Source of the DNA: Chaetoderma sp. LZ-2023a
Taxonomy: Eukaryota > Mollusca > Caudofoveata > Chaetodermatida > Chaetodermatidae
Direction of reading: 5' to 3'
Assembly (NCBI GenBank): GCA_034401795.1
Contig: CM067365.1
Coordinates: 17,227,166-17,291,165, forward strand
Length of the DNA stretch: 64,000 nt
The notes beneath the pieces are model-generated. The model ran no database searches and was not told the origin of the DNA. It saw only the letters and a program-made list of their open reading frames with translations. The position numbers and the translations under genes were made by a program. Shown here in pieces: positions 1-60,220 of the stretch (positions within the stretch are counted from its first letter, which is position 1; each line of letters starts with the position of its first letter).

Positions 1-1
1 T

Positions 2-3446: not shown

Positions 3447-3530
3447 CTGTTGAATATTTTGAAACTAATTTGACTGTTTGACTATGGCAACAACAACTTT
3501 CCATCAAATTAGTTTCAAAATATTCAACAG
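3447..3530. repeat. Hairpin element family H1, copy 1
   Basis: Near-perfect inverted repeat. The left arm starts CTGTTGAATATTTTGAAACT and the right arm is its exact complement ending AATATTCAACAG, with about 27 paired bases per arm and a short spacer. The right flank CTTACCTGTA is shared with other H1 copies at 17.15, 37.4 and 38.1 kb, so the hairpin is the core of a longer MITE-like repeat. Confidence 0.85.
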
Positions 3531-4128: not shown

Positions 4129-5219
4129 GGGGAGAAAGATGACACCTCCACGCCGGTCCCCTCCGTAAGTACCAACTTTGTTGGGAAACTAAGTCATCAA
4201 TAATTGTGGGCTTACATCCGCATACAGAGGCAACTCTGACTATGTCTAACCTTCTTCTAACAAGAAACTGTGTTCGACATCCTCGGACGACGCAATCTTC
4301 CCAAGAGACCAAACCTCCCCCCACCCACCCCAACCCCGACAGGGTCAATACTGGGTATGCCGCTAGAGATGGAATATGCCGACGATGTGGACTTTATAGA
4401 CGAGGAAAAGAAACCCCTTGACGAACTTCTCCCAATAGCGGCAAGCAAAATACAAATTGAGAATCTCTTTATGAATGAATCCAAAACAGAGTTCACCCAC
4501 ATATAACTATCTATAAAGCATGCAACTAAAGAAAATGATGATCCACTCCGTGGCGGCGAGCCATGGAGGAAAAGTAAAATCCTGGGCTCACTGCTTTGCA
4601 GTACTGCTTAAATTTCTGCATGCTGCATCATGGGGAACAAGGCTTTCCAGTCCTTCTGGAAGATATGGATTCGTATATCAAAGATGCCCTTGGTAAAAAA
4701 AATACGTTTATACAATGCAACCTGCGTATCCTTGATGATGTATAACTGTAACAGCTGGGCAGATCCAAAGACAGCTCTAGACAAACTCGACGCCTACCAC
4801 ACCAAACACCTACGCACCATCACTGGACACTGATGGCCAGACAGCATTATTTCCAATGACGCACTATACAAGATGTGTAATACGTCGCCGCTGTCTGTAA
4901 AATTCGCCCAGCAAAGATGGTCCATGTTTGGCCATGTGCTAAGGATGCCAGAAGACACACCAGCACAGAGAGCCTTGGAATTCACCATCCTCGGAGCCAG
5001 CAAATACAGAGCCAGGAGAGGGCGTCATTGCATAAATCTACTAAGGGTGCTACGAGGTGACCTCAAGAAAGCAGGATTAGTTACACTCAAGTCAAGAATG
5101 GACCTGATGAAGCTAAAGATTTTGGCTAAGGCAAGACACAGTGGACAAAAATGAAGAAGGACTGATTGCAGCTGTAGGATGTTTCTACTACTACAGCCGC
5201 AGAATACAGTAATCATACA
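4129..5219 (+). pseudogene. Internally deleted non-LTR retrotransposon (LINE copy A)
   Basis: The first 180 or so bases match the 5' end of the fuller LINE at 18,561. The sequence then jumps, at about 4,310-4,355 through a C-rich stretch, into the reverse-transcriptase palm motif YADDVDFID and runs through the C-terminal region (FGHVLRMPEDTPAQRALEF near 4,930) to the same 3' end. The whole endonuclease domain and most of the reverse transcriptase are missing, and what remains is frameshifted (fragments in different frames at 4,270-4,506, 4,630-4,833 and 4,873-5,154). It keeps both element termini and the 3' hairpin, so it looks like a non-autonomous derivative. It cannot encode a working protein. 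Confidence 0.85.
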
Positions 5220-18737: not shown

Positions 18738-19564
18738 AGCTTACCATAGCTACGTGGAATGTACGTGGTCTGAGTGCAACATCAAAGAGGTAAACCTTAG
18801 GTGCAGACTGTGAACACTATACTATCGATATTGCATGCATTCAAGAGACTAAAGTAGCTAAACACTCAGAGCAGCAACTACAGACAGGCCATAAGCTAGT
18901 GCTAATGGAACAAAAACAGGCCACATACCGGGTCTTAGGCTTCGTAAATGGACCAAGGGTCTTGGATCATGTCATTAGTTTTGGATACGTCAGTTATCGC
19001 ATCGCATTCATCGACCTGGCTATACCTACGCGAAAACACACAGCCGTTAAGTGTCTAATTCTCAACGCATACGGCCCAACTACCGAAAAAGCCAAAGAGA
19101 ATTCAGCAATATTAGATTTCTTCTATGCAGAACTGAGCTCCGCCATTCCAAACCCAGCTAGATGGCAACTGTTCGTGTGTGGAGATGTCAACTCCAAGCT
19201 TGGTAAACTCGGAACTGCGGACAAAAGTTCAGGACTTGGCTTATGCATGGGATCCTATGGAGAGGGCATGCGCAACAGCAATGGGGATGCACTGGTGGCA
19301 TTCCTTATTTCCAATGGCCTATTTGTCACAAATACGGCTTTCAAACACCAATTCCATCACCGAACAACATGGACTGGACACATTACTGATCGCAAAGCCC
19401 CAAAAGGTTCTAAGGCTACAACAGCTGTCTTCAACCAAATAGACTTCATACTATGCAAAACAGAAGCAAAACCCTTGCTCCGGAACGCTCGTTCGTATGG
19501 AGGCACATACCTCAATTCTGACCATAAGCTAGTCATTACACGCCTTCAGATGAACGATCTCTAA
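18738..19564 (+). pseudogene. LINE copy B endonuclease domain
   Basis: In one frame the AP-endonuclease-like active-site series can be read: TWNVRGLS (near 18,757), IQETK (near 18,840), LNAYGPT (near 19,062), GDVNSKLG (near 19,184), TTWTG, NQIDFIL (near 19,434) and SDHKLVITRL (near 19,519). All catalytic positions of the family (N, E, Y, D-x-N, D, H) are visible. A TAA stop at about 18,792, shortly after TWNVRGL, interrupts the start, so the open part begins downstream of it. The role would have been to nick target DNA for target-primed reverse transcription. Confidence 0.88.
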
Positions 19565-19628
19565 CTAATATATAAACACGATATCAGGCAAGAGGGTAGA
19601 GTCACCTACAAGCTACCCAAACTCATCA

Positions 19629-21540
19629 GTGACACTGACACTCAAATGTCATACAAAAAACCCTGGGGAGCAGATAGCTAACATCAATGTCAGTTCCGAT
19701 CCAAACGAATACCTAACCAAAATACTGACATCTATGGAATCATCCGCTACCAGCACCATAGGTAGTGGCCAAAGTGAAGAACGCACCAAACTACGCCGGG
19801 AGCGCAATATTATTCTGCGCCACATTAGTGAATGCTTAAAAGATCTTGCTATTCAACAAGTAGACTCCCTAGCAGATGAAATAACTGCCACAGATGACTG
19901 TCCCAAAATGTTTCGGGAAGCCCGAGCACTGAGAGTTACTGACTACACACCAAAACTCACTGTACACTACTCTAAAGGACACTTTATCGGGACTGACCAG
20001 GGAAAAGCCGAGGCGATCCGAGAATGGTTCAAGGAACAGTTCACTGACAACGATGATAAGCCCTTGCACCCATTCTCAGGAGACCCCAGGCAATTACTAA
20101 CACCAAGTAAAACAGCAGAAGTTGAAAAGGCACCTAAAGCCCTAAAAATGGACGTGCATCTGAACATGATGGCATGAGCAAAGAACTATTCAAATATGCA
20201 AGTGACATTATCTCAAAACCGATCACGCACATGATCAATTCAGCTTTTATGCACCACCTTCCCATCGACGCTATAGGCCAAGGCACCCTTATCGCACTAC
20301 CCAAGCCCAAGAAGCCACCTGGGCCCCACCCAATCTGCGGCCCATTGTGTTCCTCAACAGAATACAGAAAATCCTATCCAATGTTACTCAATGCCACATC
20401 CGAGACAAGATCGATTACTTCACCGGATCATGTCAAAGTGGCTTCAAACGTGGACGCAGCTGGGCAGACATTGTATGGGCTCAACACATGCTTGTGTCGG
20501 TAGCCATGTCCAAACACTGGGACAAAATGGGCATTGACATGTCCCGAGCCTTCGACACAATTAAATGCTCAAAGATCCTAGATGTACCACGCCAGGCCAG
20601 TTGCAATGAAGATGAGCTAAGACTAGTGAGACTACTGCTTGCAGACACCAAGCTGAGAGTACGAGCCAGGTCAGTGAAGTCTGTAGAGTTTGAGACATCA
20701 ATCGGCTCCCCACAGGGCGATGGTCTATCTCCGGTGCTTTTCACCTGCTACCTTGCTGCCGCATTGAAATCTTTGACTGGGCATGCCGCTAGAGATGGAA
20801 TATGCCGACGATGTGGACTTCATAGACGAGGAAAAGAAACCCCTTGACGAACTTCTCCCAATAGCTGCAAGCAAACAAAAAATTGAGAATCTCTTTATGA
20901 ATGAATCCAAAACAGAGTTCAGCCAAATATGCCTATCGACAAAGCATGAAACTATAGAAAATGACGACCCACTTCGTTGCGGCAAACCATGGAGGAAAAG
21001 TAAAATCCTGGGCTCACTGCTCTGCAGTACTGCTGACATTTCTGCACGCTGCGTCATGGGGAACACAGCTTTCCAGTCCTTCTGGAAGCTATGGATTCTT
21101 AGATCAAAGATACCCTTGATAAAGAGGCTACGTTTATATAATGCAACCTGCGTATCCTTGATGATGCATAACTGTAACAGCTGGGCACCTGCCACCGCAA
21201 CCACCTACGCACCATCACTGGACATCGATGGCCAGACAGCATAATTTCCAACGATGCACTAAACAAGATGTGTAATGCGTCGCCGCTGTCTGTAAAAGTC
21301 GCCCAGCAAAGATGGTTCATGTTTGGCCATGTGCTAAGGATGCCAGAAGAGACACCAGCACATAGAGCCTTGGAATTCGTCCTACTCGGAGCCAGCAAAT
21401 ATAAAGCCATTGCATAAATCTGCTAAGCGTTCTACGAGGTGACCTCAAGAAAGCAGGATTAGGTACACTCAAGTCAAGAATGGCCCTGAAAAAGGTAAGT
21501 ATTTCGGCTGAGGACAAGACACAGTGGGCAACAGCTAAGA
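19629..21540 (+). pseudogene. LINE copy B reverse transcriptase, multiply frameshifted
   Basis: The coding sequence shifts frame at least four times: 19,629-20,177; 20,174-20,340; 20,347-20,790; 20,783-21,200; and a further shift into the C-terminal part. Motifs seen are SGFKRGRSWADIVWA (finger region), GIDMSRAFDTI (motif A, with the catalytic Asp), GSPQGDGLSPVLF (motif B) and YADDVDFID (motif C, the metal-binding Asp pair). They are followed by KILGSLL and QQRWFMFGHVLRMPEE in the C-terminal region. All catalytic residues survive, so inactivation is by frameshift and is probably fairly recent. Confidence 0.88.
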
Positions 21541-22663: not shown

Positions 22664-24177
22664 GGGTTGGGTGATATTGCTCAAGGCATGACGATATCGG
22701 TATCTCATTAAAATACCGCGGTATCACGATATATCGTCATTTGGGTGGGGTGTGGAGTTAGGGTGTAAACATAGAATAACATGTATTTCAAATTGGTGGT
22801 GTCTACAAGTTATTTTCATTAAATTTGTTGCATTGAAACCGTAAATTGAGATCGCCATGATCGCCATTTCCGCATATTTAATACACAAAATTCCACACTT
22901 TGACACCCTTCAATATACAGTTTAAAGCAACGAATGCAATGCAACTAACCGTATTCATCACAAATAAGAAAAATAAAGGATTTTCTTCTGTTCTTATGTT
23001 GTATTTTGTGTTATCTTTACCTCATGACACCTGTCAAAAGATTGAGCATTAACTTGATTGCGCATAAAGGAATTCCAACGAGCGAAATCCGATTGGCCGC
23101 CGTATCATACTTGAGCCAATGATTCACACTGCAGAATTCCGACAGCTGTTATCACGCCCGCCGCTAGCGTGGACGATGCAAATTAATAAAATAACGCTGC
23201 ATGATTTTGAACGAGAACCAGCGTGAAGACTGGAAACAATTATATCAGATTTTATTTGGTCTGTAATATTAAATACTAATTTGCCCCATTGTAGACCTAT
23301 TAAAATTCGCTCACTACTTAGCGGTCCTATGCATTGATCTCAAGGCGTAGCCGGGATGTGTGAAAGTAACCCAGTTAACACTGCAGCCAAAACTGCCACA
23401 ACAGATTGAAGACTGGAAATAATTAGGCCTAAGTTATTTATTTTAAGGCTGTTTCTCACTTAGAATAAATCTGTAATGTTATATGTGGAATGAATTTTGA
23501 TCTGATTCGTTTAAAAATGCTAAATATATTGTATAAAGTTACATAAAAACGTATAACGGTAAAGCAAGAGATTAACTTCCCCTCACCCACCGTTCCAAGC
23601 TCTGGTATTGATAAGGGATTAAGTGTGTGTGGTTTCCTATCGACCTAAAAAGTTCTAAAGTTTAAATCTTTCACGGTCAGAAGAATGTTTAACCATGCAG
23701 ATCAATGACTAATGGATAAATAGCTTGACCTGTAGTAATGACGCCATCAGATTGGAATGTGGGTGGTGCAAATGGGATTCCCACTGACTAACACTCAGAA
23801 TGAGGCAAGAAAAAACATGGCGTCGTCTATTTATGTAATTATAAAAAGTGAACAACAAAGGATTATTTTGTACTTTAAATCATTTTATTAGCGCAAACAA
23901 ACCATGATTTAAATTAACACAGATTATTTTGGAGTTTATTAAGTTTTTATTACCTTAGACAAAGACTGGATTATTACTTAAAGACTATTATTGGACCGAA
24001 TAGAGGTAAGAGTATGACATTTCTAACTTAGTTATTTATATTATGCTCACAGTTAAAAGTGCAATATCTTCCTGTCGGTATTGACGATACTTACGATTTT
24101 TCGAAATTATGACGATTTCGATATCGGTATTCGGTTTATCGCGATATTGACGCTAATATCGAAAAGTCGCTCAACCC
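22664..24177. mobile_element. Non-autonomous TA-flanked element A (1.5 kb)
   Basis: The left end GGGTTGGGTGATATTG and the right end ...GTCGCTCAACCC are inverted (GGGTTGrGyGA). TA occurs at both boundaries (22,662-22,663 and 24,178-24,179). Both subterminal regions are rich in CGATATCGGTAT/ATATCG motifs in opposite orientation. The interior lacks any transposase-like frame, so it needs a trans-acting enzyme. Its right TA is also the left TA of element B. Confidence 0.75.
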
Positions 24178-24179
24178 TA

Positions 24180-24790
24180 GTGGAGTGGCTTAGGGGAATG
24201 ATCGTGACCTGCTGGAACAAAGTACCAAATTTGGCACAGACGTACTAGAGGACAATACAAACATTTTTAGAGTGGGCTGCCAAAGTCTAAACATCAAGGT
24301 CACACAGAGCTTAAGGTCAAAGGTCAAATTATGCGTTTTTCCATATTTTCTCAGTGGAATGACCGTGACACACGATAACAAAGCACCAAATTTGGCACAG
24401 ATGTATTAGAGGACAATAAAAAATGTTTTAGAGTGGGCTACCAAAGTCTAAATGTCAAGGTCATGCAGAGGTCAAGGTCAAAGGTGAAATTATATGGGAT
24501 TTTTTTATATTTCTTCACAGGGAATGTGTGTAACATGCTAAAAAGCACAGGATTTGACACAGATGTACCATAGTACAATGCATAACCTTTCAGATGGGTC
24601 TGCTATGTTTTAATGGTTAGGGGCACGTCTAGGGGCAAGGTCAAAGATCACATTGTGTGTTGTTTTCATATTTTACATAGAATTACGTTGACATGCTCTA
24701 TCAAAGCCAGTTTTTTGTACTGATGTACCTTAGTCAATGCTGTTCCTGTGTTCATTGTTCAAAAGGATAATTTGAGGTCTTGACCCCTCC
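24180..24790 (+). repeat. Left terminal inverted repeat of element B
   Basis: About four diverged ~165-bp sub-units. Each reads GGAATGAcCGTGAC..., AAGCACCAAATTTGGCACAG, ATGTA..., TTTTAGAGTGGGCT, GTCAAGGTCA... and AGGTCAAAGGTCAAATTATG. The first is the best match to the right end. Confidence 0.8.
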
Positions 24791-25033
24791 CATTATAAAT
24801 AGATGCGGGAAATGTTAATTTAAATGGTACATTTGTGTTCTGAGGTTGGGAAATGTGAACAACACGGTTTAGCATAATGCAAATCTCTCTAGAGGGGTTG
24901 CCAAACTAAGGTCAATGTCAAAGTGTAAAATTGCGCTGGGGTCTTATTTCCAAAATAGAAACATAAACGTGCTGTCTAAACCAACAGTTTTATGTTCAAT
25001 TGTGCAATTCCAATCATGGCAATTACACTGAGA

Positions 25034-26485
25034 CTACATGTGTGGTTTCAAAGTCAGTCGATCAAAGTCAAATTGTCTCACAACTGCCATGACAAAACAC
25101 AATGCTGTGCATGCGAGCCCGGCATTCATGTACTTGCAATTCTTTGAAGAACTAGACGTCGCCTTGCACCCACACTTGATTAATTCTCTGCAGCTAACAG
25201 CGGCAGCTGGTAGAGTTGTCCACAATGGGCACCACCTGTGTCTCCTTTGTGTCTCCTTTGGTCCACCCAAAGCCTTCAGGAGTAGGTGCGGATTCAAACT
25301 TCCTCTCCAAATACTGGCTTGGTATAGACATCGATGTTGGAGCAGTGCATTTTGAGTGGGAGGAAGCTTCTCCATCATCTTCCCTCTCCTTGTGAATAGC
25401 TCCTGTCGAAGCTCATTCACATCAACACGTGGAGCAGTGTTGTCATACATGGTACAAGTAAATCTTTCCATTATTCTGAATACTGGAGATGTAATGTCTA
25501 GTGGAACAAATGCAGACAATGGTGTGATGATGAATGCTTCTGTGGCAGTGGGATATGCTTTCCATGTCTTCCAAACAGATTTCTTGACTTTACCGCTAAA
25601 CTGTGATGTTGAACCAGAGAAGGCATGGAAAAATGGTAGAGCACGAGCTTTGTTTTCACCAAGTTCCTGGCAGATTGAATTAACATCATTATATCGATAC
25701 TGTTTTCCGGTACCAAAGCCAACCCATAGCTGCATATCTGGATGACACTGTATAAGATCATGGAAAACTCCCACTAGAATCACAATCACATCAGTATACA
25801 TGGTTCTAATGAGGATAGAAGTTGCACCCTCTTTAAGAGCATCATTCAAATGGAGGCATATTCTACTATCCGCCTCTTCGTGATCACTCTCTCCCATTGT
25901 GATATTGGAGTGATTTGACTGCACTGTCGGGCCAGAGCTAATGAATACCAGCTTGTTATGTGGATATTCATGATTCACTACATCTTCTGACAGCAGAGCA
26001 ACTAGATCTTCCTTGTTTCTAGGATCCTGAAGGAAACCAGCAAAGCAAGGTGGTACCTTACCATTGCGGGACACCTTTCTCCGAACCCCTTTACCTCGTT
26101 TTTCTCTAGTTGTTGTTTTCAGGCTGTCACAGTTATAAGTGTCCCAAACTATGTCAATTCTGGAACAGTTTATAAGTTGTCTCTCTGTCCATGGGATGAA
26201 CACTTTGTCACTATATTCACCGAAAGTAGATGCACTTTCCTGTGGCAAGGCATGTACTATGGCAGCACCATCAAATACTTTGGCATCAAAGTGAGATGGT
26301 GTTTCTGCTTGGACAGCTGGATCAATCCAATGCAGTAGCTCTGCTTTGTTGCTTGGTAGACGGAGTCTTCCATGTAGAGACAATGCTGGTGGCCATGGAT
26401 GATTTTGATGTGTGAAGAATTCAACTAGCTTTGTGCTGCGGACTTGTGCAACGACGAATAGCTGACTGAATAGATTGCAGTCATT
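25034..26485 (-). pseudogene. Element B protein, C-terminal nuclease-like region
   Basis: The frame is open from about 26,485 (it begins DCNLFSQLFVVAQVRSTK and runs on through EFFTHQNHPWPPALSLHGRL) to 25,034. The central block is SDHEEADSRICLHLNDAL, then SILIRTMYTDVIVILVG, then ALPFFHAFSGSTSQFSGKVK and KSVWKTW; the C-terminal block is MEKLPPTQNALLQHRCLYQA. I recognise this as the conserved 'HEEADTR / DTDV / HA-TGCDTTS-F-GKGK / PPT-DAL--H' series of a multi-copy family annotated as uncharacterised in cnidarians and molluscs. The acidic and Gly-Cys-Asp motifs resemble FEN/XPG-type PIN nucleases, which is my inference. In this copy DTDV is YTDV and GCDTTS is degraded to GSTSQ, so catalysis is probably lost. 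The tail (KNCKYMNAGLACTALCFVM) retains part of a Cys cluster. Confidence 0.7.
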
Positions 26486-26508
26486 TTATATTTCTTGGAA
26501 TTGGTGTT

Positions 26509-26766
26509 TTACCTTTGGGTTCCCGCTAGTGTCGTGAGGACGCTTAAAGAGCGGAAGATGATTCTTTTTATGGCCCTATGGATTGATTCTTTCCTTTCAA
26601 CAAGCACATCCTTGAGATAGTTTGAATATTGCTCATTACCCAATGTCTCCATCGTGTGCAATGCCTGTGCAACTGTGCCATCCATACAATCGTTTATGTC
26701 CAGGGTCATGAGTTCATTTGACTTATTCATAAATGGGTTACCCATTGCCAATATGGTGTTGCACAT
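26509..26766 (-). pseudogene. Element B protein, middle segment (GNPF region)
   Basis: The fragment reads MGNPFMNKSNELMTLDINDCMDG... and LGNEQYSNYLKDVLVERKES. It sits between the DQAHEQNN block and the C-terminal region, in the order expected for one continuous protein. It is separated from both by frame changes. No function is assigned to this region. Confidence 0.65.
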
Positions 26767-26794
26767 ATTGTTAATCTGATTCTGGAATGTTTCT

Positions 26795-27023
26795 TGTGTT
26801 GAATGCCCCTGTTCATGGCTGGTTGATCAGTCACGTGATACAGTTCATCAAACTCTGTGAGGATCCTGGCCTGTTCAGGTCCTGCTATCATCCATCATTT
26901 TAGAGCAGCAGGATTTTCAGTCAGGCCAATGGCACCACCGGATCCTTTCACTCTTTCATTATTTTGTTCATGTGCTTGGTCGAGAGGCATGCTCGAGAAC
27001 TTTCGCTTACCCTTCGTGAACAC
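26795..27023 (-). pseudogene. Element B protein, DQAHEQNN segment with in-frame stop
   Basis: Reading the minus strand from 27,023 gives FTKGKRKFSSMPLDQAHEQN, then NERVKGSGGAIGLTENPAAL and K, then a TGA stop, then WMIAGPEQARILTEFDELYH. DQAHEQNN-x-x-VKG-x-GGA-x-GL is a signature of the family, as I recall it. The stop and the frame break at its start show the copy is non-functional. It is not contained in any long open frame. Confidence 0.68.
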
Positions 27024-27266
27024 TCAATTAGCCTCAAACTCATTTCGTATTTCTTGTGGGAGAGCCTTCATATCTCTGATGTGAACTGGTACCCATCTGG
27101 CATAATTTGTATGGTCAAGCACAAAAAAACATGGTGCTAGTGCTTCAAGCACTTGTATATATGGAGCAAAGTTTCTTTCTCTGTGCGATCGAACAAAAAC
27201 TATCACCAACAGTTCAAGATGCAAGACTTTATCCCAGAACTCAAAGGTTGGGCTGTTACGTATCAT
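27024..27266 (-). pseudogene. Element B protein, SPTFEFW...NYARWVPVHIRDM segment
   Basis: The segment contains SPTFEFWDKVLHLELLVIVF, VRSHRERNFAPYIQVLEALA and LDHTNYARWVPVHIRDM. It is highly conserved against the divergent second copy, where the corresponding text at 58,400-58,550 reads FPTFKVMRMFMRILLVLLQF and AAREGNW. It is frameshifted against its neighbours on both sides. Confidence 0.68.
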
Positions 27267-27555
27267 TTAAATTTTCCAGTCATCATAAGGCACATCTCCT
27301 GGATTGCACATTGTGTTGAAAGCATCATGTTGTAACTTTGCAAGAACCATGACAGTTACTTGATGCGCATGCCGTGTCCTAGTGACGTGCGCCACCTGGA
27401 GGAAGGAGTCTGCAGTTCCCGCAGTGACAACACCAGCGTCACTCAGTGCCACACACCACCCTGATCCCTCCAACAGGTCTGCTACTCCCCTCCACAATGC
27501 CATCTCTGTGTGTAGACCACCTATTACGACTATATATCTAGATTCACCAATTCCA
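27267..27555 (-). pseudogene. Element B protein, GGLHTEMALW...RTRHAHQVT segment
   Basis: It reads YIVVIGGLHTEMALWRGV, LLEGSGWCVALSDAGVVTAG, TADSFLQVAHVTRTRHAHQV. It directly continues the previous segment after a frameshift at about 27,545. The open frame extends further 5' to 27,713, but that part overlaps the real upstream segment in another frame and is not meaningful. Confidence 0.68.
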
Positions 27556-28131
27556 CTGTGCATACTTTGCCAGAGCGTAAATTGGTTGATCACAAACCAG
27601 TACTGGTATTTGCCCAGGGTTTCGTTTTTGGATGACACGTTTAACCATTTCCATCCCATCTTTAACCATGGCCATCGTAGCTGCTTTCTCATAGAACAGA
27701 GGCAACAGAACACTTACCCCAGGTGGATCTGGGTTATCTGGCTGATGATCAGCATGATGAGCAGCCCATGCAATGAAGTCATCTTTCTCAAGTTTGTCTT
27801 TATCTAGCAGGGGTATTCTCTGTCCTAACCAGTGGTTCTCTTGTTCAACTGCTGTATTTATCATGTCAGGGGTGTCATCTACAACATGTGCCTCTGGAAC
27901 AGGTAACAGATTGGTGTTGCATGCTACAGCTGGAACTATGCGGTAGCTGTCCGGGAGGGAAGGGTTTTTGGTGCACACCGGAGGTGGAACTGTGATGGGT
28001 GGTCTAGATATTCCAGGATTAAACTGTGTAGGGAGCTGGAACAAGTTAATACTAGTTCCATGAAAAGACCCTTCAGCTGTTTGTGATGTGGGATTGTGGT
28101 CTAAATTATCAAGGGCTCCTGTTATATACAC
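27544..28131 (-). pseudogene. Element B protein, NPGQIPVLVCDQP segment
   Basis: The segment is a 195-residue open stretch. Its first half is Pro/Asn-rich and low in motifs. The second half contains DDFIAWAAHHADHQ, VSVLLPLFYEKAATMAMVK, NPGQIPVLVCDQPIYALAK and ends YAQW, a conserved stretch of the family. It lies between the N-terminal zinc module and the GGLHTEM segment. Confidence 0.66.
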
Positions 28132-28506
28132 ACCCTCACGGATTTATGCAGGACATACTAAGTCTTCCTCATTAAACCATTGACAAACTGAGTTTGTGAG
28201 CCAGTCTTCCAGTTCTAATACACGCTCATAACTCACACTGACACCAAGTTCGTGAAGTTGATTCACAATTTTTTTACTTCGGGTTTGCGTGTGTACATTC
28301 AGACCTATATATAATGGCAATGGGGGCTCTTTATCCTTGAGATGACGTGGCCTTTCTGCTCCCTTAGCCTTTTGCTTAGAGTTGAACCTGATTAGTTGGC
28401 TTATAGTCAGGCATGCATGCGAGTTGCCAGCATTCTGCTCTGTGGTATTTTACCCATACAGCAGCATCGAAATCATGACTTTGAGGGAATTCGGCACTGA
28501 ACTGTC

Positions 28507-28725
28507 TTAACAATCTGTAGTAAAACTACCTGAGAATTTGGGAAATTCTGTCTCAAACATTTCCTTCCGTATGATTTTAGCTACATGTGCCATTGACAGG
28601 GCATCTTTATAGAAATTACGTATTTCAAGTGTTTCTTTCAGCAGCACTTGGAGACCTTCGTCAAAGACTAGAAGTATGTTCTTGCCATCTGTTTGTTCCT
28701 GGCAGTCATTGGGATAGTGCAACAT
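28507..28725 (-). pseudogene. Element B protein, linker fragment
   Basis: The fragment MLHYPNDCQEQTDGKNILLV...MAHVAKIIRKEMFE lies in order between the zinc module and the central segments. It contains an 'AKIIRKE' stretch of the kind seen in family members. No function is assigned. The 280 bp on either side contain no clean frame. Confidence 0.5.
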
Positions 28726-28931
28726 AAGCCTGTTCTTTAACTAGGTTTTGTTTATTGATTTTTGAAGCGCTAATGATGTAAGCCGATTTTCATACATTTT
28801 ATGCAAGTCTGCTAATCTGAATATAAAACACTGTCTTCCAAACTGGTTTCAATGAATGATACAAGTTCAGTAAATACCCGCGACTCGGTCATTTTCTGCT
28901 CAGTAAACGTAAATGGGACGGATTGGACTCT

Positions 28932-29495
28932 TTATATACCTCTGTAGTGATTTCTAAACATATTCATACACTGCTTGTGATATTTTGCATCAATGGCAAC
29001 CAAATCACCACCTGCAAGTGTGGCTAACAGATCTGTGTCTTGCATTTCCGTTGCCTGTTCTCTAAGCAAGGTGTCCAGTTCTAATGTACTACACATATGA
29101 AGTACCCCTTCTGTTTGCTTACAGAAGACACACCTATCCGAGTGTTTAGACTCATCAGAGAGCGTGGTGCGTTTTGATTTTCTTTGTGCGATATCATCCC
29201 CATATTGTTCAATACTTCTCCTTTTGTCATGTTTTTCTTGAGCTCGCTGCAGTTTTGAACTAGCAAATTTAAGCTGACAATTAAGGTGCCACTTTGCCTT
29301 GTTGGCATGGAGGTCATTTGCATTAATGCTTTCAGGAAAACATACATCAACAGGCATTAAATATAACGTTCTGAAACCTTCTACATTTTTCATAAAGTCC
29401 TTATATGATTGTAGACCTTTACCGTCTTGTCTGGATGTGGGAAATTTTAATATGTCATCGTCCGTTCTACATATTATGCAATTTGTCCAGTCCAT
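28932..29495 (-). pseudogene. Element B protein, N-terminal double zinc-binding module
   Basis: The frame is 187 codons long. It shows two similar Cys/His sets: CIIC (residues 6-9) with KWHLNC (about 72-77), and CVFC (about 117-120) with AKYHKQC (about 172-178). The C-x2-C ... H-x2/3-C spacing suggests two zinc-binding folds, plausibly for recognising the transposon ends or chromatin. It begins MDWTN near the right TIR, as expected for the 5' end of the gene. The same two-part layout recurs in the second gene copy at 60.5-61.25 kb. The family is unnamed to me. Confidence 0.68.
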
Positions 29496-29499
29496 TCTG

Positions 29500-29990
29500 T
29501 CTGGAAGGTCTAATAAATAAGGTTCAAACAGTCTATTGTATTGTTAGCGCAGAATTTAGTCACCAGCAACTAACAGGCGGAAATTCCCATCAATTTATAT
29601 AACTGTATAAGACATGATAGCAGACGACAATGAGAGAATTGTAATCTAAGCGATAATACGTTTTCATTTTAAATTGAATAACAGTTTATAAAATTACCCC
29701 CGGGCCGTGCATTATTATAAAAATCAAATGAATACCGATACTATTGTATACTTTTCCATCTCGCAATTGATGTTTCAATTAAATTACGTCAATTTTGTGT
29801 TTTAATCTGATTCCATGGCAATCTTAAAAGTGTCTGTAGATCGTTCTTATGTGGAATGACTGCATTAATGTTTTGCTATTTATTTTAGTTGCTTGTTTAA
29901 AAGTTTTCACTCTATTAGAATTTCAAAGCCGTTATGAATTTAATTGTGTTATGCTCTGCGCTACACTGTGGTTTATTTTCTTGTTCTTTT
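29500..29990. other. 5' non-coding region of the element B gene
   Basis: AT-rich spacer between the zinc module start and the right TIR; a promoter would be expected here but I cannot point to one. Confidence 0.35.
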
Positions 29991-29994
29991 CAAA

Positions 29995-30613
29995 CTATAG
30001 ATAGCTATGCATATCAATAAACACATTTTAAAATTTTATATTGTCCCAATGTACATCTGTACCAAGTTTTAATGGTATGTTACAGCATATTGCGACCATT
30101 CCATGAAAAAATCTGTAACCTCCACACAGTTTGACCTTTTACCTTGACTGTATTGTAACCTTGACTTTCAATATTTGGCAACTACCTCTAATTTTTTTTA
30201 TATTATACTAAAATACTATACTATGCCAAAATGATGCTTTATTATGTCATCTCACAGCCATTCCCTGGTAAAAGATTAAAAAATTCCACATAATTTTATA
30301 TTTGACCTTGACCCCCAGCATGGCTTTGACCTCTAAAAATTGGCATCCCTCTATAAGAGTGTTTCTTATTATCCTAAAGTACTTCTGTGCCATGATTGGT
30401 GCTTTGTTACATTATATCACAGTCATTCCCTGGGAAAATATGAAAACTCCATAATTTGACATTTGACCTTGACCTCAGCGTGACCTTGACCTTTAAAATT
30501 TGGCAGCCCCCTCTAAAAAGTTTCGTATTAACCTAAACTACATCGGTGCCAAATTTGGTGCTTTATTCCAGCAGGTCACGATATCACTTAAATTTGGACT
30601 TAAGCCACTCCAC
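29995..30613 (-). repeat. Right terminal inverted repeat of element B
   Basis: Read on the minus strand it repeats the left end: the GTGGAGTGGCTTA start, CGTGACCTGCTGGAATAAAG, CACCAAATTTGGCAC, and ~165-bp sub-units with TCAAGGTCA. Divergence from the left end is moderate, so the arms are old or evolve independently. Confidence 0.8.
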
Positions 30614-30615
30614 TA

Positions 30616-31100
30616 TTATATGTCACAAGGGAGACAAGCGTCGACAGGCTCCATATGTAAGCAGAGTTAACTCCCGTTAGCAGTGAAAAGCTATCTTGAG
30701 CAATCGCCGGAGAATGAGCGTACATGTCGGCCAAACATTGAATGCTCTATTATTTGTTCCCACGTTCACAAACCATTTTCATCCAGGTAGACAGCTTAAA
30801 TAAAGCTAAGGGTGATATTACATCATAGGTTTCAGGGTCATTGGTTTGCACATCTTAACCCTTTAATTATCAAGCAAGTAAAAATATTAACTCGCCTGTC
30901 ATCTTGGAGGCTAAGATACTATTTGTTAAAATTTACCACATGAACAACCCCGGCTGGATAAAAGAGCCAGTCATTCCAGTGGTAAATTTCCAATAAGTAG
31001 TCGTCTATTAGAACAAATTATTCACAGGGGTTCAACAAGCACCACCACCCAATATGATCCACTTTGCATCTGGATAAGAATCAGTTTCTATTTAATAAAT
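30616..31100. other. Non-coding spacer with H2-like hairpin
   Basis: No gene. At about 30,935-31,010, TTTACCACATGAACAACC...GGATAAAAGAGCCAGTCATT followed by CCAGTGGTAAATTT forms a diverged hairpin related to the H2 family (see 62,389). Confidence 0.45.
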
Positions 31101-46019: not shown

Positions 46020-47125
46020 AAGAGTGGTTTCGATTTCCCTGATTCACATTCGTTAGTGACTGGCCTATACCACGCTGATTATCATTGTTAAACGGCTTTC
46101 GGGGAATAGAACTGTTTGCAGTTTCGAAAAGCTTGAATTCTCCAAGACAGGCAGGTACCAATTCATAAGTATTTTCACGCATACAGTTGAAACACATAAC
46201 TTTAAATTTCACAGACTCGTCGTCTAATGTATACCTTCTATGCAGTCCATATTTCCTGTACCAATTCTAGTCCTGGGGCATATGTAGTAATTTTGGGGCA
46301 TGTTGGATATTTTTGAAAATTTCTCTTGCCAAGTATTTTTAGAATCAGACAAGCATACTGATTAAGAAAAATGTTGGTGCCAATTTTTTAAAAGCATCTT
46401 TAAGCATGTTTTTTCATCCAAACTGGATGGAATCCATATTTTCGAATATTTTTGCACAGCGAATTGGACGAGGATGTGGATGTGGCATAGGTCCATGGAA
46501 TATATGTGAAATGAAACATTAAAAATCTGTTGTGAACTTGGATGATTAAAAATTATTACGCTTAGGATAATATTAACTCTTTACTGGCCACACACGACAA
46601 GGGGGATAACTCTTGGTCACAAAAATAACTTCCTACAGCCCCAAAGAAAAGGGTATGTTTAGAAACTCTTCTCGGATATGACTGACTCTTTACAGCGCCA
46701 CCCATATTGTGAAAGGCATTTAAAATACATTTTTCATTCCTATTTAATTGGTAATTTATAAATCACAGAGTTATCTCCCTTGGTCATATGACCAGTAAAG
46801 GGTTAACGAAATACAACATATTTAAACGTTCTACATATGGCATAGACTGATTACCTGTAGTCTAACAGAAAGGCGAACATGACAAAAATAAGCTTTGCAG
46901 CGATTCGTTTAAATTCAGATTCCTTATAGTTAAATTATCATATGTATATGCCATCGTATCGATTAGTAATTTGACTAGAAAATGCGTCTTTATTGGATGA
47001 ATGCTGGCCTGACACACTAAGCCACCTGAATGTTCAAATGCCAGTTACAAACAATGGCCATGGATCCTATTACACGCAATGCACACGGGATCTGTGTTCG
47101 AGACATGTGAAATTACTTAGACATC
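46020..47125. other. Non-coding spacer before the satellite
   Basis: No gene is recognised. The 46,993 Met-initiated frame has about 45 non-repeat codons before it enters the 45-bp array, with no signal peptide or domain visible. Confidence 0.4.
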
Positions 47126-47130
47126 TGAAT

Positions 47131-50100
47131 ACACATAATGCAGGAGCATATGCTCACTTATATGTGAGTCTCATTACACATAATACAGGAGCAAACGCTC
47201 ACTTATATGTGAGTCTCATTACACATAATGCAGGAGTATATGCTCACTTATATGTGAGTCTCATTACACATAATACAGGAGCAAACACTCACTTATATGT
47301 GAGTCTCATTACACATAATGCAGGAGTATATGCTCACTTATATGTGAGTCTCATTACACATAATACAGGAGCAAACACTCACTTATATGTGAGTCTCATT
47401 ACACATAATACAGGAGCAAACGCTCACTTATATGTGAGTCTCATTACACATAATGCAGGAGTATATGCTCACTTATATGTGAGTCTCATTACACATAATA
47501 CAGGAGCAAACACTCACTTATATGTGAGTCTCATTACACATAATGCAGGAGTATATGCTCACTTATATGTGAGTCTCATTACACATAATACAGGAGCAAA
47601 CACTCACTTATAAGTGAGTCTCATTACACATAATGCAGGAGTATATGCTCACTTATATGTGAGTCTCATTACACATAATACAGGAGCAAACACTCACTTA
47701 TATGTGAGTCTCATTACACATAATGCAGGAGCAAACACTCACTTATATGTGAGTCTCATTACACATAATGCAGGAGTATATGCTCACTTATATGTGAGTC
47801 TCATTACACATAATGCAGGAGTATATGCTCACTTATATGTGAGTCTCATTACACATAATGCAGGAGTATATGCTCACTTATATGTGAGTCTCATTACACA
47901 TAATTCAGGAGCAAACACTCACTTATATGTGAGTCTCATTACACATAATGCAGGAGTATATGCTCACTTATATGTGAGTCTCATTACACATAATGCAGGA
48001 GCAAACGCTCACTTATATGTGAGTCTCTTTACACATAATACAGGAGCAAACACTCACTTATAAGTGAGTCTCATTACACATAATGCAGGAGCAAACGCTC
48101 ACTTATATGTGAGTCTCTTTACACATAATACAGGAGCAAACACTCACTTATAAGTGAGTCTCATTACACATAATGCAGGAGTAAACGCTCACTTATAAGT
48201 GAGTCTCATTACACATAATGCAGGAGCAAACACTCACTTATATGTGAGTCTCATTACACATAATGCAGGAGTATATGCTCACTTATAAGTGAGTCTCATT
48301 ACACATAATGCAGGAGCAAACGCTCACTTATATGTGAGTCTCATTACACATAATACAGGAGCAAACACTCACTTATATGTGAGTCTCATTACACATAATA
48401 CATGAGCAAACGCTCACTTATAAGTGAGTCTCATTACACATAATGCAGGAGTATATGCTCACTTATAAGTGAGTCTCATTACACATAATGCAGGAGTAAA
48501 CGCTCACTTATATGTGAGTCTCATTACACATAATGCAGGAGTAAACGCTCACTTATAAGTGAGTCTCATTACACATAATGCAGGAGTAAACGCTCACTTA
48601 TATGTGAGTCTCATTACACATAATGCAGGAGTAAACGCTCACTTATATGTGAGTCTCATTACACATAATGCAGGAGTATATGCTCACTTATATGTGAGTC
48701 TCATTACACATAATGCAGGAGTATATGCTCACTTATAAGTGAGTCTCATTACACATAATGCAGGAGTAAACGCTCACTTATATGTGAGTCTCATTACACA
48801 TAATGCAGGAGTATATGCTCACTTATAAGTGAGTCTCATTACACATAATGCAGGAGTAAACGCTCACTTATATGTGAGTCTCATTACACATAATACAGGA
48901 GCAAACACTCACTTATATGTGAGTCTCATTACACATAATACAGGAGCAAACGCTCACTTATATGTGAGTCTCATTACACATAATGCAGGAGTAAACGCTC
49001 ACTTATATGTGAGTCTCATTACACATAATGCAGGAGTATATGCTCACTTATAAGTGAGTCTCATTACACATAATGCAGGAGTAAACGCTCACTTATATGT
49101 GAGTCTCATTACACATAATACAGGAGCAAACACTCACTTATAAGTGAGTCTCATTACACATAATGCAGGAGTATATGCTCACTTATAAGTGAGTCTCATT
49201 ACACATAATGCAGGAGTAAACGCTCACTTATAAGTGAGTCTCATTACACATAATGCAGGAGTAAACGCTCACTTATATGTGAGTCTCATTACACATAATA
49301 CAGGAGCAAACACTCACTTATATGTGAGTCTCATTACACATAATGCAGGAGTAAACGCTCACTTATATGTGAGTCTCATTACACATAATGCAGGAGTATA
49401 TGCTCACTTATATGGGAGTCTCATTACACATAATGCAGGAGCAAACGCTCACTTATATGTGAGTCTCATTACACATAATGCAGGAGCAAACACTCACTTA
49501 TATATGAGTCTCATTACACATAATGCAGGAGCAAACACTCACTTATATGTGAGTCTCATTACACATAATGCAGGAGTAAACGCTCACTTATATGTGAGTC
49601 TCATTACACATAATACAGGAGCAAACACTCACTTATATATGAGTCTCATTACACATAATGCAGGAGCAAACACTCACTTATATGTGAGTCTCATTACACA
49701 TAATGCAGGAGTATATGCTCACTTATATGTGAGTCTCATTACACATAATGCAGGAGTAAACGCTCACTTATATGTGAGTCTCATTACACATAATACAGGA
49801 GCAAACACTCACTTATATGTGAGTCTCATTACACATAATGCAGGAGCAAACACTCACTTATATGTGAGTCTCATTACACATAATGCAGGAGTATATGCTC
49901 ACTTATATGTGAGTCGCATTACACATAATTCAGGAGTATATGCTCACTTATATGTGAGTCGCATTACACATAATGCAGGCGCATATGCTCACTTATATGT
50001 GAGTCTCATTACACATAATGCAGGAGCAAACACTCACTTATATGTGAGTCTCATTACACATAATACAGGAGCAAACACTCACTTATATGTGAGTCTCATT

Positions 50101-53100
50101 ACACATAATACAGGAGCAAACACTCACTTATATGTGAGTCTCATTACACATAATGCAGGAGTATATGCTCACTTATATGTGAGTCTCATTACACATAATG
50201 CAGGAGCAAACGCTCACTTATATGTGAGTCTCATTACACATAATACAGGAGCAAACACTCACTTATATGTGAGTCTCATTACACATAATGCAGGAGTATA
50301 TGCTCACTTATATGTGAGTCTCATTACACATAATACAGGAGCAAACACTCACTTATATGTGAGTCTCATTACACATAATACAGGAGCAAACGCTCACTTA
50401 TATGTGAGTCTCATTACACATAATACAGGAGCAAACGCTCACTTATATGTGAGTCTCATTACACATAATACAGGAGTAAACGCTCACTTATATGTGAGTC
50501 TCATTACACATAATACAGGAGCAAACACTCACTTATATGTGAGTCTCATTACACATAATGCAGGAGTATATGCTCACTTATATGTGAGTCTCATTACACA
50601 TAATACAGGAGCAAACGCTCACTTATATGTGAGTCTCATTACACATAATACAGGAGTAAACACTCACTTATATGTGAGTCTCATTACACATAATACAGGA
50701 GCAAACACTCACTTATATGTGAGTCTCATTACACATAATGCAGGAGCAAACACTCACTTATATGTGAGTCTCATTACACATAATGCAGGAGTATATGCTC
50801 ACTTATATGTGAGTCGCATTACACATAATTCAGGAGTATATGCTCACTTATATGTGAGTCGCATTACACATAATGCAGGCGCATATGCTCACTTATATGT
50901 GAGTCTCATTACACATAATGCAGGAGCAAACACTCACTTATATGTGAGTCTCATTACACATAATACAGGAGCAAACACTCACTTATATGTGAGTCTCATT
51001 ACACATAATACAGGAGCAAACACTCACTTATATGTGAGTCTCATTACACATAATGCAGGAGTATATGCTCACTTATATGTGAGTCTCATTACACATAATG
51101 CAGGAGCAAACGCTCACTTATATGTGAGTCTCATTACACATAATACAGGAGCAAACACTCACTTATATGTGAGTCTCATTACACATAATGCAGGAGTATA
51201 TGCTCACTTATATGTGAGTCTCATTACACATAATACAGGAGCAAACACTCACTTATATGTGAGTCTCATTACACATAATACAGGAGCAAACGCTCACTTA
51301 TATGTGAGTCTCATTACACATAATACAGGAGCAAACGCTCACTTATATGTGAGTCTCATTACACATAATACAGGAGTAAACGCTCACTTATATGTGAGTC
51401 TCATTACACATAATACAGGAGCAAACACTCACTTATATGTGAGTCTCATTACACATAATGCAGGAGTATATGCTCACTTATATGTGAGTCTCATTACACA
51501 TTATACAGGAGCAAACGCTCACTTATATGTGAGTCTCATTACACATAATACAGGAGTAAACACTCACTTATATGTGAGTCTCATTACACATAATACAGGA
51601 GCAAACACTCACTTATATGTGAGTCTCATTACACATAATGCAGGAGTATATGCTCACTTATATGTGAGTCGCATTACACATAATTCAGGAGTATATGCTC
51701 ACTTATATGTGAGTCGCATTACACATAATGCAGGCGCATATGCTCACTTATATGTGAGTCTCATTACACATAATGCAGGAGTATATGCTCACTTATATGG
51801 GAGTCTTATTACACATAATGCAGGAGCAAACGCTCACTTATATGTGAGTCTCATTACACATAATTCAGGAGCAAACGCTCACTTATATGTGAGTCTCATT
51901 ACACATAATGCAGGAGTATATGCTCACTTATATGTGAGTCTCATTACACATAATGCAGGAGCAAACGCTCACTTATATGTGAGTCTCATTACACATAATG
52001 CAGGAGTATATGCTCACTTATATGTGAGTCTCATTACACATAATGCAGGAGCAAACGCTCACTTATATGTGAGTCTCTTTACACATAATGCAGGAGCAAA
52101 CGCTCACTTATATGTGAGTCTCATTACACATAATACAGGAGCAAACGCTCACTTATATGTGAGTCGCATTACACATAATGCAGGAGCAAACGATCACTTA
52201 TATGTGAGTCTCATTACACATAATGCAGGAGCAAACGCTCACTTATATGTGAGTCTCATTACACATAATACAGGAGCAAACGCTCACTTATATGTGAGTC
52301 TCATTACACATAATGCAGGAGTAAACGCTCACTTATATGTGAGTCTCATTACACATAATGCAGGAGTAAACGCTCACTTATATGTGAGTCTCATTACACA
52401 TAATTCAGGAGCAAACGCTCACTTATATGTGAGTCTCATTACACATAATACAGGAGCAAACGCTCACTTATATGTGAGTCGCATTACACATAATGCAGGA
52501 GCAAACGATCACTTATATGTGAGTCTCATTACACATAATGCAGGAGTATATGCTCACTTATATGTGAGTCTCATTACACATAATGCAGGAGCAAACGCTC
52601 ACTTATATGTGAGTCTCATTACACATAATGCAGGAGTAAACGCTCACTTATATGTGAGTCTCATTACACATAATTCAGGAGCAAACGCTCACTTATATGT
52701 GAGTCTCATTACACATAATGCAGGCGCATATGCTCACTTATATGTGAGTCTCATTACACATAATGCAGGAGTATATGCTCACTTATATGGGAGTCTTATT
52801 ACACATAATGCAGGAGCAAACGCTCACTTATATGTGAGTCTCATTACACATAATTCAGGAGCAAACGCTCACTTATATGTGAGTCTCATTACACATAATG
52901 CAGGAGTATATGCTCACTTATATGTGAGTCTCATTACACATAATGCAGGAGCAAACGCTCACTTATATGTGAGTCTCATTACACATAATGCAGGAGTATA
53001 TGCTCACTTATATGTGAGTCTCATTACACATAATGCAGGAGCAAACGCTCACTTATATGTGAGTCTCTTTACACATAATGCAGGAGCAAACGCTCACTTA

Positions 53101-56370: not shown

Positions 56371-56372
56371 CC

Positions 56373-56666
56373 TCACTGGCACTCATCTGCCAGCTGAATA
56401 TCATCTAGATTGCCGTTTTCACAGAGCTCATCCATTGCCTCGCAGTTACACATTCTGTACAGACAACATGTCCACGTTTGCAGGAGCAAATAAACTGTTC
56501 TGCACATGCCTTTGATGGACTTACAGCTCACAAGTTCCAAAACTGCTTTTGGGGCTGGTGGAAGATCCGTGATCACTGGAATGTGGGTGTTGCTCTCGTT
56601 CACCCATCCGTATCCAGCTGGAGATGGTAGATTAGGTTTTGCAGTTACCTCATTGTTCCAGGTCAC
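56373..56666 (-). pseudogene. Second family copy, C-terminal Cys-rich tail
   Basis: The fragment reads LPSPAGYGWVNESN, then VITDLPPAPKAVLELVSC, and ends in a Cys cluster (CRMCNCEAMDELCEN region). A frame change inside hides more Cys residues: an adjacent frame reads ICSCKRGHVVCTECV. This matches the pattern of the family's C-terminal metal-binding tail. It lies last in the minus-strand order, as expected. Confidence 0.6.
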
Positions 56667-56782
56667 ATACTGATAATGCGCTCGGTTTATGTGATGGTTA
56701 AGAGCTCATCTAGTAGGCGGTACCGTTTTGGATTCAGCAAATGACTTCTTGAACATATTTCAGCGAACTGCTGAAATCCCCT

Positions 56783-57064
56783 TTATCCTTGTTCCTGGCA
56801 AATATAACTGACATACAAATTGTTCCAGCAATTCTTTGGTCTGTGTCGATACTGATTGATGTTTGCCAAGATCGAGAAATGCATCGTAATATCATCAAGA
56901 TCATTCTTGAGAACCTTCCAGCAAGCTAGTTTGCCTTTTCCAGAAAACCGACTTGTCGTGTCATAGTCTGTGAAGGCACGGAAGCCAGACAATGCAGCCG
57001 CGATGTGTTCACCTATGGCATCATAAATCGGCTTGAGAAGAATTGTACATTTTTTGTTGGCCAT
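56783..57064 (-). pseudogene. Second family copy, GKGK segment of nuclease-like region
   Basis: The fragment contains LSGFRAFTDYDTTSRFSGKG and KLACWKVLKND, the counterpart of HAFSGSTSQFSGKVKKSVW in element B. Here the Asp and TTS residues are kept, so this divergent copy preserves the motif better than element B does. In FEN-like nucleases this position is a helix-hairpin motif next to a catalytic Asp; the link is inference. Confidence 0.65.
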
Positions 57065-57097
57065 GCCTGTGATGAAAGCTGCCAGTTCTCCTAACTG

Positions 57098-57325
57098 TTA
57101 AAATCTTCTCAGTGCCAAGACCACGTCAGTGTCAGGTGACATTATGGTTACTTGCGTAGTAGTTTTAGCCGCATGGATAGCATGCAGAATGTGTATTGTG
57201 TCTCCTTCCTCGTGTGTACTGCTAAGTTCATCAACACGGCTATGGTTAGAATGCGCTCCATGCTGGGTTGCTACAACTATTTCCGTATGACTTGGTCCGT
57301 AGTGTCCAAAGATGTTGTTTGCCAA
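57098..57325 (-). pseudogene. Second family copy, HEEGDT...DTDV segment
   Basis: It reads STHEEGDTIHILHAIHAA, then QVTIMSPDTDVVLALRRF. The two acidic motifs align with SDHEEADSR and YTDVIVI of element B and retain both Asp residues of DTDV. It stops at 57,098 through a frame break just before the next segment. Confidence 0.68.
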
Positions 57326-57504
57326 GTAATCTGAGACTGTCCATTGTTTTGTTACTCGCTATAAAATTCCTGAATGATGTTCTGATTGGAGTGCCATCAG
57401 TACATATATGTGAGTTTCTCTGGCTAGTATGCTTTAATGTCATCGGTAGATCACAGTGATAACAATAACATGCACAGATGTATATGATGAATCGTATTTC
57501 GCTA

Positions 57505-57852
57505 CTAGTCATTGAACCTTTTAGCCAAATCTGAACATACCTTTATGTTTCCAGATGAACCAAATTGTTGTATAATTGCCATTCCACAACTGGCTATAGA
57601 CTTTGATCCATCTGTGATAATGGTGGCTGTTGATGTTTCTCTTGAGTGATTACCGTTTATACAGCTCTCCAAAACTTCCATCAACTTGTGTTTATCTGTG
57701 CAAATCAATTGACTACAATCAGTTGCAAATAAGGAACAGGTAACACATGAGAACTCATAGGTGCCAACTGCATCTTGGATGTCAATATCTGGGCGTGATC
57801 TTGTGACCAGTGCCATCCTAGCAAACAGAGAGCGATCCTCTTTCAGTTCCAC
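57505..57852 (-). pseudogene. Second family copy, segment upstream of the nuclease-like region
   Basis: The 115-codon fragment begins MELKEDRSLFARMALVTRSR and contains ATIITDGSKSIASCGMAIIQ. It lies between the FPTF segment and the HEEGD segment. The content 'RSLFARMALVTRSRPDIDIQDAVGTYEF' resembles family text in position but not strongly in motif. No function is assigned. Confidence 0.5.
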
Positions 57853-58173
57853 TGATTTTGTGCCGACCTTGACAGTTGTTTGTTTTCCATTTGTTGTCCA
57901 TTTTTAAAGCTTAACCATAGTCATCTTATCACAGAAGTGAGCGTTTCCAATGATGCGATCACGAGCAAAATTAACATATGCTTCCTCTCCAGATTGCTCT
58001 TGTTTAAAGATATCCTCTCTAACATGGTCTGCGCCAACAGATTTTGTGATAATATTTATTAGCTGAAGGGATTTGTCTCATTCAGTAAGGTTTTGAGCTT
58101 AACCACATTATCTCAGACATTTCATGGTGGACAGTGCGCGTCTCAATATGCATCCCTGCAATTTCTTCTGCTT

Positions 58174-58935
58174 CTAGTGAAGGCGTTCTAGTTCGGGAGC
58201 AATTAGAAAAGAAATCTGCATTTTTGTTGGCCTCTGTGTTATACCTTTATGTCCTCCTAACACCATTAATTTTTGATTTACCTTGCTTTTCTTTACACAT
58301 AAGTTTCCGTGGATGAACATTTCCCAGATATTTGGGTCTTCTGTTTGAAGGCTGAGCATTTTTGAAAGATATTCAGGGATATACGGTGCATATTTGAGTT
58401 TATTTTGGCAAAAGACGAAACCACATAACTGTTCAAGGGATGTCAGGTGAAGAAGCCAATTTCCCTCACGGGCTGCCTTTACAAACTGAAGTAGAACGAG
58501 CAAAATTCTCATAAACATTCTCATCACTTTAAATGTTGGGAAATTCTCCTCACGCTTAGCACTGAAATTGTCTAATGCTTCACTCGTCATATGTGTTAGA
58601 TCAGCGATACACTTGGAGGCATCCTTTGCTTTATGAACATCAACTAAGCTGCATGCTTCCCCGAGATTTAGTGACGCTAGTCTAATTGAATTCGGTAACG
58701 CTCCTTCTGATGCTTCAAATTCACTAAGAAACAGATCAAACAATGCTTGGAGGATGATGATGTGGGCAGTGAGTGCACGTTCCATATGCCTGCCATCTAG
58801 TAATTGCCGAACTGTTGCTAATCCATAGATACCAGATTCAGTACATGCGTCGTCGATGCCACTTCCCTCAATTGAACTGCCAATTGCTCTCAAATCACAT
58901 GTTACAGTATGGAATTCATTCAATCTGAAACTCAA
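58174..58935 (-). pseudogene. Second family copy, central segment (largest open piece)
   Basis: It is 253 codons long. ESGIYGLATVRQLLDGRHME and RALTAHIIILQALFDLF align in order with EGSGWCVALSDAG and RTRHAHQVT of element B. FPTFKVMRMFMRILLVLLQF, AAREGNWLLHLTSLEQLCGF and KYAPYIPEYLSKM align with SPTFEFW, SHRERNF and NYARWVPVHIRDM. GNLCVKKSKV follows where element B has its frame break. The identity is low but the order is conserved, so this is a separate subfamily rather than a recent duplicate. Confidence 0.65.
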
Positions 58936-59379
58936 CTTTCTCGTATTCTAGTTTCATCGACTGTAACTTTACAGCTCTCATATAGAGGTCCATGTCCAAT
59001 GTGATGATGATTTTCTTGTTGGGTCAAACAATCTCTGCACTTATTTGTTAAACATGTTGAAAAACAGTGACTAGTGTAGACCATGCATTTGCTGGAGCTG
59101 GTATGAGCGGTAGCATCTGGACTTCTGTTAGCAGCATATTATCAGAATTAATCAAAGAATGTTAAGCTGCCCATGTCGGAACTAACTGATGATTTATTTG
59201 CAGACAGCTCTATCTGAAGGATGAAAATGTGCTTGCTGTGTGGTATTTAATTTTTGCTCTTCTGTAAATGAATCTGTACTTCTAGGTGATGTGGCATCAG
59301 ATGTGCTCGTAAGTTCAGTTGGATTGATTTCTTAAATTTGCATGTTTTCTATTGAACTTTCCTTGCTTTGACCGTCCTT

Positions 59380-59637
59380 TTATGCTGACCTGTGCTGATA
59401 TCTGGCAGCTAGCCATGTAGTGGTTTCATGAAGATAGTTATGAAAATCAATCTGGTCATGTTGTATCTTGAAGCTTGGATACCTTGGATTCTGTGCTGGT
59501 TTGGGGTTTCCATGGATACCAGAGTCATGCACCTCAATGCAATTGTAATTCAAGAGAGATCGATCTGAAATCGTATCTGGTAGATGCATAGGTGTGAAAA
59601 ACATCACTTGATCTCGCTTCTCCTGAAACGCCACCAT
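59380..59637 (-). pseudogene. Second family copy, fragment between zinc module and central segment
   Basis: Fragment with QVMFFTPMHLPDTISDRSL and LNYNCIEVHDSGIHGNPKPA. It is in the right order and strand but carries no motif I recognise. The remaining sequence between 58,940 and 60,220 is broken by stops in all frames. Confidence 0.4.
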
Positions 59638-60220
59638 GACAGTTCCAGGTAAAGTGCTTTTTAGCCTTCGGGAGTGTCTTCTGCAAAGTATATATTGTCC
59701 ACTGCAAAGGAGACTGATGTTCCTCTCACTAGAGCAGGAGGTATGACGATACCATCAGAGTGACCCATATGCTGAATTGCACCTTGAGCCAACTGTGTTT
59801 CTACTCGTAGTATTCGACTGTAGTCCATACTCATCCCAAAAGCATGATGATAGTTAACTAGATGTTTGCTGCGACTGTATATGTGAACCTTTATATCCCC
59901 ATGGGTAGAACATGTTGGTTAGGCTATCATTTTAGAATGTTTGAATCCAGTTTTCACATGTTTTGGTTTATACAATATTAGTCTTTGACGTTTTGACTTC
60001 CTACATTATTGTTTGGGCTATGTTAGATACTGAAGTATTGGCACCTTTGGAACGTGCGTCAGAAAGTAATGTTGTAGCTGGGCCTTCAATAATTCATCTA
60101 AGTAAAGCTTTCAAGGATATCGGGATTGAATCATCACTATCATCACGCATGCGTGATTCATTAAATGACCAGCGGTTCTGTCTTGCTTTGAGGATATCCT
60201 TCCGAATGATTCGTGCCCAT

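Follow-up and report, generated by a model that had tools for sequence, protein, structure and literature searches.

A decayed transposon in a Chaetoderma genome, most likely of the Academ superfamily, encodes a predicted fusion of a DDE transposase and an EXO1/FEN1/XPG-like nuclease

What is the large minus-strand protein that lies in fragments between inverted ends at positions 24178-30615 of a 64,000-nucleotide stretch of the caudofoveate mollusc Chaetoderma sp. LZ-2023a (assembly GCA_034401795.1, contig CM067365.1, positions 17,227,166 to 17,291,165; the whole stretch is hereafter the window), and has an element of this kind been described before? An original prediction, made from the letters of the DNA, had the protein as the transposase of a DNA transposon family that might be undescribed. 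The transposon and its transposase have held up. We consider it very probable that the ~6.4 kb element derives from an autonomous cut-and-paste DNA transposon and is itself dead; most likely it is an Academ element of the nuclease-bearing AcademX lineage, an assignment made by setting its architecture against printed descriptions.

The ends of the element are inverted as predicted, and its 15-bp termini are perfect (Table 1). The homology of about 600 bp that had been claimed for the two ends is present at 78% across 339 alignment columns (24201-24537 against 30582-30248), with weaker inverted matches deeper inside, out to 30030. Much of each end consists of ~160-bp units, the first two on the left being 83% alike and those on the right spaced at 159-166 bp. 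Tandem Repeats Finder at its threshold reported no array within 24000-30800, probably because the units have diverged too far or are not numerous enough. The window is microsatellite-rich, and in a control that drew 3123 random pairs of 1.5-kb stretches from its remainder, 156 pairs had at least one perfect inverted 15-mer match; what argues for an element is therefore the pair of long inverted ends enclosing a gene, and not the 15-mer alone.

That gene could be followed with the help of an intact relative, P0121 (1496 residues), which is collinear with the copy in the window from 29495 down to 25094 and identical to it at 959 of the 1485 residues covered. In intact relatives the gene gives one predicted protein, some 1400-1550 residues long, that begins with two Cys/His modules (C-x2-C ... 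H-x2-C, twice) in which C9, H70, C73, C126, C129, H177 and C180 are invariant and C6 nearly so among the 23 rows of one alignment (A2). These modules, and the motifs SDHEEAD, TDV and S-F-x-GKVK, were correctly read in the window, but the last of them does not mark the end of the protein, since P0121 continues for some 170 residues beyond its GKGK motif and finishes in a cysteine-rich CXC finger, whose nine cysteine columns are retained in 51-54 of the 54 rows of alignment A3.

Between the modules and the finger lie two further domains, both of which were revealed by predicted folds alone: when seven pieces of the window copy were scanned with Pfam, no family exceeded its cut-off, and a PDB sequence search up to E 10 matched neither a transposase nor an XPG-type nuclease. 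A viral structure library gave no match at E 0.001. The best structural matches of the predicted middle domain, moderate in quality, were the P element, Transib, Hermes and RAG1 transposases, and the candidate D-D-E acids are invariant among the aligned relatives, so that this domain is predicted to be a DDE transposase core. The region of the HEEAD and DTDV motifs is predicted to fold like the EXO1/FEN1/XPG nucleases and has seven conserved acids. The nuclease and the predicted transposase are fused in 23 of 23 rows of A2 and 22 of 22 of A5 (rows chosen by length), and the acids of both domains are retained across lineages that are only ~20% identical. The predicted DDE fold, its invariant acids and the occurrence of a family member between inverted termini at another locus, described below, are the reasons for regarding the enclosed gene as the transposase. 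In the window copy all of the D-D-E candidates are retained, together with five of the seven nuclease acids; the first D of DTD has become Y and the D of GCD is deleted. Because of its in-frame stops and the loss of these two acids, the copy is dead, and transposition by its own protein is no longer possible.

Relatives were sought among predicted proteins. A first search gave 201 proteins at E 0.001 (120 listed) and a second, with a read-through query, 68, of which 31 span the whole query as one predicted protein. Named sources among the matches listed are corals, a gorgonian, a sea anemone, a crab, a sea spider, a sea cucumber, a feather star and a sponge, together with an abalone, a thrips, a pipefish, an eel and a hagfish. 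When a distant relative served as query, 64 proteins were found, including those of two sea urchins, a sea cucumber, a porcelain crab and a shrimp. The closest relative to the C-terminal part of the window copy among the matches listed is P0001, at 90% identity. So broad and patchy a distribution is in keeping with a mobile element. Four proteins of Nymphon striatum that match the transposase (P0036, P0069, P0180 and P0183) bear source names such as sodium channel subunit, hepatic leukemia factor, aldolase class 2 or LMBR1 protein, and are probably gene models fused across insertions. In 11 of 15 scanned relatives Pfam family PF20231 (DUF6589) matches inside the transposase core, above cut-off in two (P0131 and P0135) and below it in nine; it was not reported in the other four, P0121 among them. 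A literature search for DUF6589/PF20231 yielded one paper only, and that unrelated.

The exact 14-mer terminus gave pattern matches in 92 viral-contig stretches (80 listed), and 29 and then 27 pattern matches in viral contigs contained no confirmed relative. Among genome contigs, relatives were confirmed in none of 37 and then in two of 30 (L093 and L094), both of which, to judge from their titles and the hosts of the family, would be animal DNA within bacterial bins. L093, filed as a deep-sea Planctomycetota bin and likely a eukaryotic contaminant of it, has at 1-4401 an open, divergent frame of the family of 1466 residues; no termini were accepted for it. The 3.4-kb contig L094, which carries the label of a Bathymodiolus brooksi symbiont and is likely mussel host DNA in the symbiont assembly, matches over the C-terminal part only, and there the relative is enclosed by TAGTAGGGTGCCC and its exact complement (13/13), with TTA on either flank.

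L094 is the only second locus with ends located, so that what follows compares two copies from distant lineages. Its end, TAGTAGGGTG, and that of the window element, TAGTGGAGTG, share 8 of 10 positions, for which the chance in a fixed register is ~6e-4, and TAGTRGRGTG is common to the ends of both. The original prediction had TA flanking the element as its target duplication. GTGGAG...CTCCAC in the window is indeed bounded by TA at each end, inside the 15/15 inverted repeat; yet because the L094 ends start with the same TA between TTA duplications, and the two ends agree so well, the terminus probably begins with this TA. The flanks of the window element are then CCC and TTA, i.e., there is no clear duplication.

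The family has been placed in Academ because its combination of nuclease and transposase matches the printed account of AcademX. In that account, AcademX makes 3-4 bp duplications and encodes a nuclease, and AcademH makes duplications of 9-10 bp and encodes a helicase (PMC10045372). A mollusc survey has 100 curated bivalve Academ families with a mean length of 5565 bp, ranks Academ third by number among DDE elements, behind TcMar and hAT, and finds it nearly confined, within molluscs, to bivalves (PMC10294476). With these in print, the suggestion of an undescribed family is not upheld. Several points weigh against the Academ placement: the abalone relative P0140 sits poorly with a superfamily nearly restricted to bivalves among molluscs, the window copy has no visible 3-4 bp duplication, the likeness to AcademX is one of description and not of sequence, and GTAGGG in L094 likewise has TA at either side. 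Membership was judged from architecture only, and the two relatives in the window come from deeply split lineages, two points that would suit a lineage related to Academ but separate from both AcademX and AcademH, of which one of the two in the window might be an example. As nuclease plus transposase is the printed mark of AcademX (PMC10045372), such a lineage seems very improbable.

The position of TA is also what would favor a separate, undescribed superfamily with a strict 2-bp TA target duplication and termini starting GTGGAG, for TA lies on both sides of GTGGAGTGG...CCACTCCAC in the window and of GTAGGG...CCCTAC in L094. The bases beyond TA match as well in L094, however (TTA/TTA, chance about 1 in 64), TAGTRGRGTG is shared by both lineages, and the architecture fits AcademX as printed, which makes 3-4 bp duplications (PMC10045372); the reading of TA as a duplication is weakened, and a superfamily of this sort unlikely. 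In several animals the relatives are annotated as plain host genes, and it might be supposed that an XPG-like host nuclease gene family had by chance come to lie within the ends of a non-autonomous transposon unrelated to it. The fusion to a predicted DDE transposase in every row of the length-selected alignments A2 and A5, the second locus at which family members lie between termini of like pattern, and the retention of the acids of both domains in such diverged lineages make this extremely improbable. An Academ element remains our preferred reading: it most likely belongs to a known family, and so would account for a group of animal proteins called "uncharacterised" instead of being a new kind of element.

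How such an Academ element might move can be sketched from its domains. The zinc modules and CXC finger may bind the sub-terminal units and the termini, the DDE core would cut at the TAGT... ends and join them to the target, leaving a short duplication of ~3 bp, and the fused nuclease could trim flaps, hairpins or gapped ends arising en route. For other elements, end opening or trimming is done by the Artemis or FEN1 of the host. A bolder proposal, which we hold to be quite unlikely, is that a P/Transib-like transposase opens or trims its own DNA ends with its own EXO1/FEN1-type nuclease in a 2-bp TA lineage outside the described Academ. Whether transposition needs the nuclease is a question of real interest, and what the nuclease does there is now directly testable, with candidate catalytic residues supplied for both domains. 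More broadly, many animal proteins labelled "uncharacterized", "CXC domain-containing" or DUF6589 gain a likely function, that of a transposase.

Outside the element, the window holds another relative, likewise decayed and of a distant lineage of the family. No termini were accepted for it in a comparison of 55600-56420 with 61200-63990 (13-mers with at least 11 matches, best 25 shown); the best pair, 55844/61307 (13/13), does not begin with TAGT and was rejected. Elsewhere, frames at 18794-21244 (+) resemble by eye the endonuclease and reverse transcriptase of a non-long-terminal-repeat retroposon, a like fragment lying upstream at 4257-4607 (-). About 9 kb at 46975-55866 (+) appear, by eye in translation, to be a tandem repeat of a 45-bp unit, with an open frame of 1808 residues at 49234-54660; this is probably a satellite, though unusually stop-poor. 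A near-perfect palindrome at 62389-62523 has 64-bp arms, 88% complementary, with 7 bp between them.

Table 1. Positions in the window of the element, its gene and its domains, and of the second relative
Feature	Position	Strand	Remarks
Left flank CCC	24175..24177	.	unlike right flank
Left terminal inverted repeat, TAGTGGAGTGGCTTA	24178..24192	+	15/15 against 30601-30615, inverted
Left sub-terminal array, ~160-bp units	24189..24707	+	24189-24332, 24350-24493, weaker 24520-24707
C-terminal CXC cysteine finger, partly destroyed	25094..25231	-	
Decayed transposase gene	25094..29495	-	covers P0121 residues 1-1489 at 65% identity; interrupted by 9 in-frame stops, reading frame shifted 4 times
Predicted EXO1/FEN1/XPG-type nuclease domain, approximate extent	25268..26344	-	model mf26f4d75daa0 and conservation
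Predicted RNase H-like DDE transposase domain with helical insertion, approximate extent	26844..28431	-	model m9d55c3d1fa72 and conservation; overlaps Pfam DUF6589
Candidate acids of DDE domain (codon starts)	28110/28101, 27591, 26969	-	D469/D472, D642, E856
GGLH motif of DDE domain	27521-27510	-	
Two N-terminal Cys/His modules	28968..29480	-	kept in window copy
Right sub-terminal array	30030..30582	-	units of left array, inverted; matches weaker out to 30030
Right terminal inverted repeat, exact reverse complement of TAGTGGAGTGGCTTA	30601..30615	-	15/15
Right flank TTA	30616..30618	.	
Second, divergent, decayed relative of the family, outside the element	56400..59894, possibly to 61263	-	tblastn

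Set beside known systems, the family shares with the P element and THAP9, hAT (Hermes) and Transib/RAG1 a predicted RNase H-like fold with a helical insertion preceding the last catalytic helix, and its GxxH sits where the P element has [C/D]xxH; it differs from all of these in its added nuclease and CXC finger, and in its termini. The TA at both sides of the window copy, which is probably part of the terminus, would suit Tc1/mariner; among the structures listed, the best matches are the four transposases named earlier. To PF20231, which overlaps the core, Pfam assigns no function. The nuclease resembles EXO1, FEN1, XPG and GEN1 and the XRN 5'-nucleases in its predicted fold and in the order of its seven acids, which can be matched to FEN1 numbering, and differs from them in its fusion to a transposase and in an identity of 8-14% in structural alignments. 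AcademH shares the Academ transposase, but its helicase and 9-10 bp duplications, as printed, set it apart from a family without a helicase domain above cut-off: in the window the piece at 26509-26826 matched, below cut-off, a helical-bundle family that takes its name from an RNA helicase (E 0.058; 13.9 bits, where 27 are required), Pfam scans of 15 relatives contained no helicase family, and the precomputed Pfam column showed no helicase-bearing homologue among 64 listed matches of the divergent relative (7994 candidates sharing most words scored). The AcademX nuclease is of the XPG type, and a Cys8 finger belongs to Academ. The Academ superfamily and the AcademX lineage reportedly go back to Kapitonov and Jurka in 2010 and Kojima in 2020. 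It is AcademX that the family resembles in having a DDE transposase and a nuclease in one element, a length near 5.6-6.4 kb, an occurrence in molluscs and, in L094, a 3-bp duplication.
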